From: Planctomycetota bacterium
Lineage (GTDB): Bacteria; Planctomycetota; Planctomycetia; Gemmatales; Gemmataceae
Direction: 5' to 3'
Assembly: GCA_021807595.1 (NCBI GenBank)
Contig: JAKBCS010000022.1
Location: forward strand, 1 to 48,683
DNA: 48,683 nt
Shown here: positions 27,333 through 33,625 of the stretch, one piece after another
How positions within the stretch are numbered: position 1 is the stretch's first letter
How the letters are laid out: every line of letters begins with the position of its first letter
Made by a program: the position numbers and the translations under genes
Notes under the pieces: generated by a model
Database searches by the model: none
Told to the model about the DNA's origin: nothing
What the model saw: the letters and a program-made list of their open reading frames with translations, nothing else

Positions 27333-28085
27333 ATGCCTTTGTGCATCGCCGGAATGCATCGCTCCGGAACCTCCATGATCGCCAGTCTCTTATACGATTG
27401 TGGACTCGATCTGGGTCCACAAAACGACATGCTCAAGCCCGCGCCCAACAACCCCGAAGGCTTTTGGGAGAGTCGATCCTTTCTTGGCCTCAACGACGAA
27501 CTCTTGAATGCGCACGGCGGAACCTGGGATTGCCCGCCTCGCCTGGATGCCGTCGCTTGGGAGAACGAGACAAATCTGCATCCGCTCCGCGTTCGGGCGA
27601 AAAAACTCGTGCATCGATTCGTCGATCGTGAGCCGTGGGGCTGGAAAGACCCGCGCAACTCGCTTACCTTGCCGTTTTGGCGAACGCTGTTGCCGGAGAT
27701 GAAGGTTCTGATTTGCGTCCGCAATCCCCTGGCCGTGGCGGAATCGCTGTGGGTGCGCAGCGAGATACCCCGCGCCGCAGCGCTCCAGCTTTGGCTCCAC
27801 TACAATCGAAGCGTTCGGAGTTCCGCTCCCGCTTCGAGCCGACTCGTCACCCTCTGCGACAACTATCTCCACGGGCCGCAAACCGAATTGCGCCGCGTGT
27901 TGGACTGGTTTGGTCTGTCCGCGACCGAGGAAACCCTCGAACGGGTTTGCCGTCGCGTCAAACCCAGTCTCTTGCATCATCGAACGACACAGAACGATCT
28001 CGAACGGGCGGGCGCTTCGGAAGAGATGCTCGCTTTGTACGCAGAATTACGGGAGGAGGCGCTGCTCCTCCCGAGTGCTGTTTGA
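27333..28085 (+). CDS. Sulfotransferase family protein
   Basis: A 250-residue P-loop-like protein starting LCIAGMHRSGTSMIASLL, the 5'-phosphosulfate loop of PAPS-dependent sulfotransferases. The usual 3'-phosphate segment is VLICVRNPLAVAESL, with Arg. WGWKDPR, a common element of this family branch, lies between them. These enzymes move sulfuryl groups from PAPS to carbohydrates or other acceptors; Planctomycetota carry many. The ribosome site is weak, but the family starts at this Met. It converges with the Sec-candidate gene, nine bases away. The acceptor is unknown. Confidence 0.85.
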   Translation: MPLCIAGMHRSGTSMIASLLYDCGLDLGPQNDMLKPAPNNPEGFWESRSFLGLNDELLNAHGGTWDCPPRLDAVAWENETNLHPLRVRAKKLVHRFVDREPWGWKDPRNSLTLPFWRTLLPEMKVLICVRNPLAVAESLWVRSEIPRAAALQLWLHYNRSVRSSAPASSRLVTLCDNYLHGPQTELRRVLDWFGLSATEETLERVCRRVKPSLLHHRTTQNDLERAGASEEMLALYAELREEALLLPSAV

Positions 28086-28094
28086 GGCGATCGG

Positions 28095-29210
28095 CTACGG
28101 TTCCATCTCCAGCGCGATCCGCATTTTGACCGTCTGCGGTTTTCGCTCCCAATGCCAGACGAAGTCGGCACGCTCCGATACCAGAGCCAGCGAGGCAAGC
28201 GTTCGCTTGTCGCGGTCGGCTTGGGCGATCCCCACAAAATGAGCGGTTATCTGCCCTTCCGTCGGTCTGCCGATTGGAAAGGACATCTCCAGATCGCCGG
28301 ACAACTCGATACGGGCCTCTTTCTCGGACCCAGCGAGGAGCTTGGCCGTCAGCGTCGCTTTCTTTAATTTGGAATCCGAGGTCTTCCAGTACGGCCCCGG
28401 TGGATAGCCGTACTGAAACAGCTTGCCGGCGATCTTTTCGGGGATCGTCCAGGTCGCATCCGCTTTCGCGTCGGCGGGAGGCAAGAACGCCTGCAACTCC
28501 TCGCCCGTCAATTCCACGCGATCGTTGCTCACGCCTCGATTGTCGCCCTTGGCATCGACGCGCGTCCAAATGTGGATAAATCGCCCCTCTTTTGTCTTTG
28601 GTTTTGCGTCGTGCTTTTCGGCGGCGCTGGCTCGAATCGCCTCGGCGTCGCGCGGCTTGAGCTTTTGCTCTTCGACGATCTTTTGCAGAAACGGCAGGAG
28701 ATTCTCAGCCTTATACGCCTTCTGCACGCGCTGGGTGGCCAACACGTCGCCGTTGGGCGCGACCACGAACACGCACACCGCGCCGCCTTCCATTTTCCGC
28801 CGTGCCCGTTCGGTGTCGAGGCGTTCGAGTTCCGCCTGTTCGTCGCCGCTTCGCTTGTCGCGCTGGTAGTCGTCGCGCGACAGCCAGACCGGCACGAAAT
28901 ACTGGGTGATGATCTCGATGATACGCGGGTCGGAGAGTGAACTCACTCTCATGTCGCGCGCGCCGTTTCAGCACCGCCCCGTCTCGATGTTGCCGTCGTG
29001 CGTGAACAGAAAAAGAGGCTGCTTCTCTCGTTCGCCGATGCGCCGGGCCGGCATCAGCGACGAAGTCCAGGGGATTTTGCGCCAGGCGTTGGTATCGCTG
29101 CCCTTAATGGCGTCGATGCGTTTGGAAATGGGATCGACCTCGCGTTGGTCGGCGGACGCTGTCAGGACGGCCAGCGCCGCAAGGGCGAGGACACTCGCTC
29201 GAAACTTCAT
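28095..29210 (-). CDS. Candidate selenoprotein: exported thioredoxin-fold protein with Cys-UGA motif
   Basis: From ATG 29210 (AAGGAGGC seven bases upstream) the frame encodes a signal peptide (FRASVLALAALAVLTASA), a linker with AWRKIPWTSSL, and QPLFLFTHDGNIETGRC, a thioredoxin-like strand leading to an active-site Cys80. Codon 81 is TGA (28968-28970). The frame continues without shift to 28095: NGARDM, then SDPRIIEIITQYFVPVWLSR, the expected thioredoxin-fold helix and strand, then a 220-residue C-terminal part. Without read-through the second half would start at Met 28952, which lacks a ribosome site. Read as selenocysteine, the product is 371 residues with a CU pair. A hairpin follows at the right distance. 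Recent nonsense mutation remains possible. Confidence 0.62.
28933..28950 (-). promoter_or_regulatory. SECIS-like hairpin downstream of the in-frame TGA
   Basis: On the minus strand the arms GAGAGTG (28950-28944) and CACTCTC (28939-28933) pair perfectly around loop AGTT. The stem begins 17 bases after the TGA and the loop 24 bases after it. Bacterial SECIS elements as described by the bSECISearch model need a stem of 4-16 bp, loop 16-37 bases from UGA and a G in the first two loop bases. All three hold here. Confidence 0.55.
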
Positions 29211-29340
29211 GGTCGCCTCCTTGTCGTAAAGATGGGGAACGACGTGTTATACCCCAAGGAACCGAAAGGATGCCAGCCGATCTTGCATCGCCGACCGGGA
29301 GAAGCTATGAGCCACGCTTATCCGAAACGGGAGGATGTCC

Positions 29341-30336
29341 ATGTCGCGGCGAATAATTGCAAGGTTATCGCTGGGTAGCATCGTGGCGTTACTGACGGCG
29401 GCGGGAACATGCCGGGCCGAACTCGTGTGTTCGGAGTCGGTGGTCGACAAGGGCGAGACGCGCAGCGGCGTGCCGTTGTCCCATCGATTCACCTTCGTCA
29501 ATCGCGGGGCCAACCCCGTCGAGATTACCGACGTTCGTCCGAGCTGCGGGTGTCTGGCTCCGAAGTTGGAACGCCGCATCGTGCCGCCGGGAGAGTCGGG
29601 CGAACTCTTGCTTGAAATCAACACTTTGACGCAGCCGGACGGGGAAAACGGCTGGCGCGCCACCTTGCGCTACAAGGACGGCGCGGGCGAACGAGAACTG
29701 CCGCTCTACGTCCGCGCCCGCGTCGTCCGCGAAATCGGGGTAGAACCGCCCGCGCTGGCCATCTACACCGATTCGTCGCTGGGCCATGAAATCGCGGTGA
29801 TCGATCGGCGAACGGAGCCGTTGATGGTGCGGGCCGTAGTGGCCTCGTCGCCGCACGTTCGCACGCATTTGGGCGAACTCAAACGCGATGCCGCCGGTCG
29901 TTGGCGGCGGTCGATTCGAGTGGAAGTGTTGGCCGACTGTCCCGAAGGAACCCACGAGGAGACGCTGCGCATCTGCACCTCCGATGCGCTCTACACCGAA
30001 CTGAAGGTCCCGTTCACGATCGTCAAGCGCGCCCGACTCCAGACGAGCGCCGCCCCCGCTTCGGTGGTGCTGACGGCGACGGGCAATGAACCCCTGCCGT
30101 CCCGCGTCGTGTTGTTGAGCGCGGCGGACGACCGCGAAGTTCGCATCGACCGAGTCGAGACGGATCACCCGGCGGTCGAATGCCGTTGGGCACAAGGTCC
30201 GGGACATCAGGCGACGCTGAAAATCCGCGTCGAACGCGGCCGCATAACCGGCGACCGCCTCCGCGCGTTCGTCCGCGTCCACCTCGGCCAACCGGCGGAG
30301 ACGATCCTTATCCCCGTTAGCTGCCTGCTTCGCTAA
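29341..30336 (+). CDS. Exported DUF1573-type protein
   Basis: A 331-residue protein with a signal peptide ([20 protein letters not shown]). The first mature domain is DUF1573-like: [20 protein letters not shown], then RPSCGCLAP with the typical CGC, an immunoglobulin-like beta domain. Two further beta-rich domains follow ([36 protein letters not shown]). Such proteins are periplasmic; their role is not established. ATG 29341 is preferred over 29335 because GGGAGG then lies six bases upstream. Its 3' end overlaps the converging cyclophilin gene by 20 bases. Confidence 0.8.
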
Positions 30337-30817
30337 CGCGCGCTGAAACGATGGCGACATCCTTGGTGGGCACGTTCTCATGGGGACCGCGTCGCCCGGT
30401 CGCTACCGCCTTGATCTTGTCCACCACATCCATGCCGGACACCACTTTGCCGAACACGCAGTACGGCGAACGGCGGTCGTCCAAGCCGCTGTTGTCCACC
30501 ACGTTGATGAAGAATTGCGCCGTGGCGCTGTGCAGATCGTTGGTGCGCGCCATGGCGATGGTTCCGCGCGCGTTCGACAGGCCGTTGGGCGCTTCGTTGC
30601 GGATGGGATCTTTGGGCTTTTTCTGCTTCAGACCCGGTTCAAATCCGCCGCCTTGAATCATGAAGTTGGGAATGACGCGATGAAAGATCGTGCCGTCGAA
30701 GAAGCCGTCTTCAACGTAGGAAAGGAAGTTGGCCACTGTCTCGGGCGCTTTGTCGGCGTCCAGCTCCAACTCGATGGCTCCGAGCGACGTTTCGAGAACG
30801 ACCAAGGTAGCGGGCAT
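30317..30817 (-). CDS. Cyclophilin-type peptidyl-prolyl isomerase, cytoplasmic
   Basis: A 166-residue cyclophilin that speeds proline isomerisation in protein folding. Active-site segments are [19 protein letters not shown] (Arg, Phe and Gln), [20 protein letters not shown] and [17 protein letters not shown]. It has no signal peptide, so it is probably cytoplasmic. ATG 30817 follows GGAGGG at seven bases; an upstream in-frame Met at 30844 lacks one. A paralogue with a lipoprotein signal lies 48 bases upstream on the same strand, so the two likely share a transcript. Confidence 0.93.
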
Positions 30818-30865
30818 GAATCCGCCCTCCAAACAAATAAGCACATCACGGATGGGTAAAGAAAT

Positions 30866-31522
30866 CTATTTCCTGTCGGCGCGGCGAATGGATTTGATGG
30901 TAACCTCCTCGGCCGGTACGTCGCCCATGACGGGTTGCCCTTGGATGGTGATTTCCTTCGTTGTCACTTTCTTGATTTTATCCACCACGTCCATGCCTTC
31001 GATGACCTTGCCGAACACGCAGTAGCGCGGCCGGTCGAGTTTGCCGCTGTTGTCCACGGTGTTGATGAAGAACTGCGCCGTGGCGCTATCGAGGGCGCTG
31101 GTGCGCGCCATGGCGATGGTGCCGCGCGTGTTCGACAAACCGTTGGGCGATTCGTTCTTGATGGGATCGCGCGTCTTTTTTTGCTTGCCCTTGAGGCCTT
31201 CGATGGACGTAACGTCTTTCAGTCCTGGCTCGAAACCGCCGCCCTGGATCATGAAATCTTCGATGACGCGGTGGAAAATCGTTTTGTCGTAAAACTTATC
31301 GTCCACATAGGTGAGAAAATTCTTGACCGTAATCGGCGCGTGGCCGTCATCGAGTTCGACCTTGATTGCGCCCATCGACGTGTCGATGATGACGACCGGC
31401 ATTTTGGCCTCGCCGCTCGCCTTGTCGGACTTCTTTTCATCCGCCACGCCGCTTCGATCCTCGGCGCAGGCAACGATGACGAGGGAGACGAGTGCCACGG
31501 TAAGAACGAGGTAACGCCGCAT
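30866..31522 (-). CDS. Cyclophilin-type peptidyl-prolyl isomerase, exported lipoprotein
   Basis: A 218-residue cyclophilin with the same core as its neighbour ([53 protein letters not shown]). It is preceded by a hydrophobic N-terminus ending IVAC, which fits a lipobox with Cys19, then a charged linker of 20 residues. It is probably a periplasmic folding catalyst anchored by lipid. An insertion (KDVTSIEGLKGKQKK) lies before DPIKNE, longer than in its paralogue. A 25-bp palindrome lies 59 bases upstream. Confidence 0.93.
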   Translation of the reverse strand: MRRYLVLTVALVSLVIVACAEDRSGVADEKKSDKASGEAKMPVVIIDTSMGAIKVELDDGHAPITVKNFLTYVDDKFYDKTIFHRVIEDFMIQGGGFEPGLKDVTSIEGLKGKQKKTRDPIKNESPNGLSNTRGTIAMARTSALDSATAQFFINTVDNSGKLDRPRYCVFGKVIEGMDVVDKIKKVTTKEITIQGQPVMGDVPAEEVTIKSIRRADRK

Positions 31523-33436: not shown

Positions 33437-33625
33437 TTAACAGTACAGCGCTACTCTAGCGAAGCGGACACTTTCCCCCCTTCTCCCCTGTACTCAGGGG
33501 AGAGGGGTCGGGGGTGAGGGGTGAGCGACGGAACACGACGTCGAAGCTGCTTTTTCCCCCCAAACCCCTCAACCCCTTTCCCCCCCTGAGTACACGGGGA
33601 GAGGGGAGTAGCGTTGTACGGTTAA
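33437..33625. mobile_element. MITE-like element with 20-bp terminal inverted repeats
   Basis: Left end 33437-33456 and right end 33606-33625 match as inverted repeats at 18 of 20 positions (outer bases TTAAC and GTTAA). The inside repeats the 9285 family core: CTCCCCTG and CAGGGGAG at about 33483-33502, and CCCCTGAGTACA near 33584. It is 189 bp and has no coding capacity. It fills the 306-base divergent gap between 33359 and 33666. A TTAA duplication at the ends is possible. Confidence 0.7.

Follow-up and report, generated by a model that had tools for sequence, protein, structure and literature searches.

A gene on the minus strand of the stretch of planctomycete DNA analysed here (48,683 nucleotides, hereafter the window) almost certainly inserts selenocysteine (Sec) at an apparent stop in its middle. 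With high confidence we read its product as an exported thioredoxin-fold oxidoreductase in which Sec would be the catalytic nucleophile, the UGA being recoded via SelB, tRNA-Sec and a SECIS element. A preliminary description, made from the DNA letters, had proposed that the gene encodes a selenoprotein, and this proposal is now supported by homologues carrying the UGA, by selB and a Sec-type selD in the same genome and by a covarying SECIS-type hairpin.

The UGA-containing frame and its homologues

Direct reading of the sequence, with the TGA read through, gave one frame of 371 amino acids closed by a TAG. The protein begins MKFRASVLALAALAVLTASA, continues with DQ after the putative signal peptide and further on reads LFLFTHDGNIETGRC-U-NGARDMRVSSLSDPRIIEIITQYFVPV, the context of codon 81 being GRC-U-NGARDM. 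The coordinates of the frame and of its TGA, with no shift between the two halves, were as the preliminary description had given them, the minus strand having gone unstated there. Its further statement that the second half has no ribosome site of its own is borne out by inspection of the sequence: AAGGAGG stands before the first ATG, and no Shine-Dalgarno was seen upstream of the internal ATG at 28952, where a 285-aa frame starts five codons past the TGA. Elsewhere in the window TGA is an ordinary stop; the neighbouring sulfotransferase gene, for example, ends with one (28083-28085). The features of the gene are collected in Table 1.

Table 1. Features of the candidate selenoprotein gene (window coordinates)
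Feature	Position	Strand	Details and basis
Shine-Dalgarno AAGGAGG	29216..29222	minus	5 nt upstream of ATG 29210; sequence reading
Selenoprotein gene (predicted)	28095..29210	minus	371 codons + TAG stop (28097-28095), ATG 29210-29208; full-length homologues
Putative signal peptide, residues 1-20, MKFRASVLALAALAVLTASA before DQ	29151..29210	minus	sequence reading; cleavage site inferred
Thioredoxin-fold domain, residues 40-185	28656..29093	minus	AlphaFold2 + VIA-align
Cys80, partner just before Sec	28971..28973	minus	Cys at -1 in 39/79, at -2 in 37/79 Sec copies
UGA, almost certainly selenocysteine, residue 81	28968..28970	minus	UGA in 79/86 homologous copies, same column
SECIS hairpin	28933..28950	minus	5' arm 28950-28944 GAGAGUG, loop 28943-28940 AGUU, 3' arm 28939-28933 CACUCUC
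Arg88 (Sec+7)	28947..28949	minus	Arg in 77/79 Sec copies
C-terminal antiparallel beta domain, residues 210-369	28104..28583	minus	AlphaFold2; no clear structural relative

We searched 149 related whole genomes with the readthrough protein, rebuilt the frames of homologous loci by reading through the TGA, and used an iterative procedure to align them. The family was present in 50 of these genomes, and nearly all matches hold exactly one internal TGA. Whether homologues show UGA or Cys at this position was a check that the preliminary description had itself proposed; among the 86 copies covering it (from the 50 genomes with matches), 79 have TGA at the family column and the other seven carry Cys (two), Gly (two), Asp, Pro or Ser. 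An in-frame UGA kept across species or exchanged for Cys, as expected of a selenoprotein, is thus what the alignment holds. All seven copies lacking the UGA are paralogues within two genomes, G041 and G020, and all are continuous fused frames. In a wider sample of the phylum the family was found in 114 of 392 Planctomycetota genomes, with one TGA in most of the matches listed. Copy number reaches five to six per genome. A scan of named genomes located the family in Planctomycetota metagenome-assembled genomes and in two Acidobacteria, both of whose copies have the TGA and a hairpin.

The sister genome G003 retains the entire frame at 96% identity. Measured against it (NG86), dN/dS is 0.27 upstream of the TGA and 0.068 downstream, the latter value indicating strong purifying selection on the frame past the TGA. 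Because G003 keeps the frame, dN/dS is low and the TGA column is constant in 79 of 86 copies, the frame is not a product of chance. At one locus of G041 (L106, G041:C265) a single frame contains the family's thioredoxin-like domain twice (1146-1655 and 2169-2627), each with a UGA at the column; extra TGAs lie between them, and the locus is either one double selenoprotein or two genes.

The product of the divergently transcribed neighbour (window 29335-30336, plus strand) is a DUF1573 protein carrying the motif SCGC; Sec forms of such proteins occur elsewhere (PMC13188914). This neighbour is retained in G003 and is not evident in the more distant relatives L114-L119, and we therefore claim no conserved operon. 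Two adjacent genes for cyclophilin-type peptidyl-prolyl isomerases lie on the minus strand. Pfam confirms the one at 30317-30844; the other, at 30866-31522, was recognised from its sequence likeness and seems to begin with a lipoprotein-like leader.

The hairpin after the UGA and the Sec-decoding machinery

In the 57 nt starting at the UGA, a stem-loop follows the codon at a spacing of 17 nt (UGA to stem). Among 14 relatives of the gene's own clade, 98% of cells are paired, compared with 32-68% after a shift of the partner by one to three columns; columns 26 and 33 form C-G in eight sequences and U-A in six, and in L020 the pair at columns 25 and 34 changes from G-C to A-U while the protein changes from Leu to Phe. 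Sister subfamilies use another register, with a 6-bp stem and the loop CGUGN. Here 96.4% of cells are paired (30-48% after such a shift), compensatory changes occur in five of the six pairs and double-change cells number 56, compared with 15 in shuffles; RNAalifold predicts the helix of this larger subfamily unaided. An offset scan gave sharp peaks of mean pairing in the two registers, at 6.6 of 7 pairs (elsewhere ≤4.2) and 5.8 of 6 (elsewhere ≤4.1). The hairpin has decayed in the seven non-UGA copies, which retain 1-5 of 7 pairs and 0-4 of 6, and three Sec copies (L024, L025 and L060) match neither register well. Taken alone, the window sequence has an unremarkable folding energy (z = -1.4); the support for the hairpin is comparative and comes from covariation. 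The Rfam model SECIS_1 had no match in the genome; no control matched it either, which makes that search uninformative. With a covarying stem directly after the UGA and a G early in the apical loop (AGUU or CGUGN), the conserved hairpin is, on these comparative grounds, a bacterial SECIS element.

The preliminary description had named selA, selB, selC and selD as the genes to look for, of which selB and a Sec-type selD were found in the window's genome (G000), a draft assembly of 282 contigs, while selA and selC are absent from the draft and present in the three same-genus genomes. The selB match scores 340 bits in its main stretch and 385.8 with a second stretch (cut-off 242), and that of selD 351.8 bits, with an in-frame UGA of its own in GUAGK. 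This selD (G000:C218; L043 589-1626, minus strand) has its TGA within CAGUAGK, making SelD itself a selenoprotein; under table 11 its frame would begin downstream, at a TTG. The genome also encodes a selenoprotein of the known Trx7/PDZ type (G000:C172; L137 1301-2600), which matches NF041199 at 455.8 bits (cut-off 300) and has an in-frame TGA in the motif CPHUPDC. A second Thioredoxin_7 match 'with TGA', on G000:C148, was rejected, having no clear selenoprotein frame.

In G003, selA adjoins selB, and the homologous contig of the window's genome begins, at base 1, 22 bases past selA; the missing selA therefore appears, judging from this sister genome, to fall in an assembly gap. No convincing selC gene was found in the draft. 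All three same-genus genomes (G001-G003) have selA and a strong tRNA-Sec, confirmed in G003 by ARAGORN as tRNA-SeC(UCA). In G003, selC has a recombinase-like gene and a dispersed repeat next to it. Of its two flanks, the assembly of the window's genome contains just the left one, and in that genome selC is very probably present, though not found in the draft. In G003 a 475-aa tyrosine recombinase-like gene on the opposite strand (L134, G003:C209, 9792-11254) overlaps the 3' end of the tRNA-Sec gene, which suggests that selC is the integration site of a mobile element. A dispersed repeat of ~150 bp (window 33473-33624), with matches in both orientations, occurs in tens of copies in the window's genome, often at the ends of G000 contigs, and probably causes assembly breaks. 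The sole nearby literature tying Sec machinery to Gemmata concerns Gemmata obscuriglobus (PMC4807772) and, in the available part of its text, names no such protein.

These observations bear on the other ways in which the TGA could be explained. The genome is a draft of 282 contigs and a lone TGA is the simplest type of error, so that the gene could be a pseudogene or a sequencing error in which a Cys- or Trp-containing gene acquired the codon; the TGA, however, recurs in 79 copies among 50 genomes and in the two Acidobacteria, a conservation in independent genomes that refutes this explanation, and selection past the TGA is strongly purifying, leaving it a negligible probability. Slightly less remote, though still very improbable, is a real stop, by which a short exported peptide would be followed by a second gene or by a reinitiation product from the ATG at 28952. 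The 285-aa frame opened by that ATG is what speaks for it, but the ATG has no Shine-Dalgarno, the UGA falls inside a single thioredoxin domain, with a strand before it and the active-site helix after it, the non-UGA copies are uninterrupted fusions of the two halves, and the covarying hairpin is linked to the UGA. UGA is read as Trp or Gly in a few bacterial lineages, and genome-wide recoding of this sort (for example UGA as Trp), or suppression, might likewise carry translation across the codon. Against such a reading, to which we attach scarcely any weight, TGA ends genes of the window in the normal way, the copies without it have C, G, D, P or S in the family column and never Trp, selB and a Sec-type selD are present and the SECIS hairpin is specific to the UGA copies.

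Predicted fold, active site and proposed mechanism

The AlphaFold2 model of the whole protein has a pLDDT of 83, with low values over residues 1-23. In VIA-align comparisons the thioredoxin domain best matched Thioredox_DsbH 7tkv (Z 12.2, 2.9 A, 127 residues), other matches being DsbH 2ju5 (Z 11.8) and DsbD-gamma 2fwe (Z 11.0). Its topology is the beta-alpha-beta arrangement of a thioredoxin fold, the active residue standing where the active-site helix begins: Sec81 lies directly before helix 82-89. In an hhalign comparison with a YyaL/DUF255 protein of the same genome (92.5%), Sec81 falls on the first Cys of CHWC and Ala84 on the position of the resolving Cys; a multiple alignment agrees. The preliminary description had placed the TGA at the second residue of a redox pair, which is correct within the vicinal pair Cys80-Sec81, whereas relative to CHWC the TGA corresponds to the first Cys. 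A Cys is found at -1 or -2 in 76 of the 79 Sec copies, and the other three have no Cys in the three residues before Sec; at Sec+3 stands Gly, Ala, Val or Ser, one of the first three in 78 copies. The C-terminal domain has a pLDDT of 86 when predicted alone. Kinship of this domain with beta-barrels was considered and rejected, the matches being middling (best NspA, Z 8.1; Foldseek E ≥ 0.016) and taken to reflect a common arrangement rather than descent. PDB sequence searches returned nothing useful.

In the mechanism that we propose, UGA is recoded by SelB and tRNA-Sec under the direction of the SECIS hairpin 17 nt downstream in the coding sequence, a step shown by the comparison of homologues, and the signal peptide would export the protein. 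Sec81, at the N-terminus of the active-site helix, occupies the site of the nucleophilic Cys of CxxC in DsbD-gamma, DsbH and Thioredoxin_7; where that motif has its resolving Cys, the family has Gly, Ala or Val (here Ala84), and the Cys preceding Sec substitutes for it (CU, or CxU in sister subfamilies). Most likely, the selenolate would attack an envelope disulfide, other oxidised sulfur or a peroxide substrate, and Cys80 would resolve the intermediate by forming a Cys-Sec selenenylsulfide, to be re-reduced by a thioredoxin- or DsbD-type donor.

The chief functional alternative to this mechanism is the binding of a metal or metalloid. The protein would still be a selenoprotein, with Sec81 acting as a ligand of a metal or metalloid (Hg, Cu, As) in the envelope, or else as a peroxidase-type nucleophile, and not as a thiol-disulfide catalyst. 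The absence of the resolving Cys at +3 is compatible with such a role, as are the three Sec copies in which no Cys closely precedes Sec, and the vicinal CU pair also occurs in the metal-related selenoproteins HgcA, MbdU and SaoL of a 2026 inventory (PMC13188914). The fold and the position of Sec, on the other hand, match disulfide reductases of the DsbD-gamma/DsbH class, and the great majority of Sec copies (76 of 79) have a Cys placed for a selenenylsulfide. We consider a role other than thiol-disulfide catalysis possible, if distinctly the less probable, and retain the oxidoreductase as the preferred reading.

Family history and comparison with known systems

In a midpoint-rooted tree of 80 copies, the non-Sec copies are nested in Sec groups, with at least three label changes. 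Sec has been replaced by G, D, P or S (five copies) more often than by C (two). As five of the seven paralogues carry one of the former residues, some copies have lost selenol function. The sequences suggest an ancestrally Sec family in which Sec may have been lost mostly to non-Cys residues. That the whole amounts to a phylum-wide, multi-paralogue selenoprotein family, with Sec ancestral and Cys a poor substitute, is a proposition for and against which we see about equal grounds. If it is true, searches built on Cys/Sec pairs would have missed the family, which could be a main reason for the persistence of Sec decoding in Planctomycetota; the authors of deep-Sep state that their method may filter out selenoproteins without Cys-containing homologues (PMC12013277). 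Where UGA is taken as a stop, family members are read as truncated proteins. The family bears on what sustains Sec decoding in these bacteria and on how a Sec family exists with almost no Cys forms.

The preliminary description had also called the selenoprotein new, and as far as this can be tested the claim holds. NCBIfam release 20.0 (June 2026) was searched with the window protein and seven diverse homologues, and the sole (seleno)protein models to appear were those of VPGUxxT, at 11-15 bits with cut-offs of 275-350; the one model above its cut-off, a DNRLRE domain in the long L024 frame, is unrelated and was set aside. In Pfam, no family over the thioredoxin-like region reached its cut-off in the eight members scanned, and the window protein had no match. 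Thioredox_DsbH and Thioredoxin_7 scored 12-15.5 bits in homologues (cut-off 27, E 0.02-0.2), which, together with the lack of CxxC, places the proteins outside these families. The 2026 inventory lists 119 prokaryotic selenoprotein families, none of them matching, and never names Planctomycetes (PMC13188914). To these 119 the family adds one that is found in 114 of the 392 Planctomycetota genomes sampled. This is apparently a large, undescribed family of exported thioredoxin-like selenoproteins across Planctomycetota.

Among known selenoproteins, the Trx7/PDZ type (NF041199) likewise has an exported thioredoxin-like domain with Sec and shows weak profile similarity (hhalign 69%), a comparison with the genome's own Trx7/PDZ protein in which the residue pairing with Sec is not settled. 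Its motif CPHUPDC, however, has Cys before Sec and at +3, and it carries a PDZ domain. Members of the new family instead show CU or CxU, lack Cys at +3 and end in a beta domain; NF041199 (cut-off 300 bits) gave no match with the window protein or with the seven diverse homologues. VPGUxxT (NF041382/NF041383), also a thioredoxin-like selenoprotein, gave the window protein its best NCBIfam match, which covers the same region (E = 0.057). The window protein nevertheless reaches just 13.1 bits of the 275 set for NF041383, so that it falls outside that family, and its motif is GRCUNGA and not VPGU; at Sec+3, where VPGUxxT has Thr, 78 of 79 copies of the new family have Gly, Ala or Val. With Thioredox_DsbH (PF03190)/YyaL-DUF255 and Thioredoxin_7 (PF13899) the family shares a common fold, and its Sec aligns with the first Cys of CHWC; it differs in having (C)Uxx[GAV] for CxxC and a beta domain for the large C-terminal part of YyaL. 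DsbD-gamma is similar as a periplasmic thioredoxin fold (Z 11.0 to 2fwe), but the new protein is stand-alone and soluble, lacks the transmembrane part of DsbD and has a predicted Sec nucleophile with no CxxC. Mammalian thioredoxin reductase carries a vicinal Cys-Sec pair in its C-terminal GCUG tail, a flexible tail of a flavoenzyme; the vicinal pair is shared with the protein described here, where it is placed instead within a thioredoxin fold, at the active-site helix.
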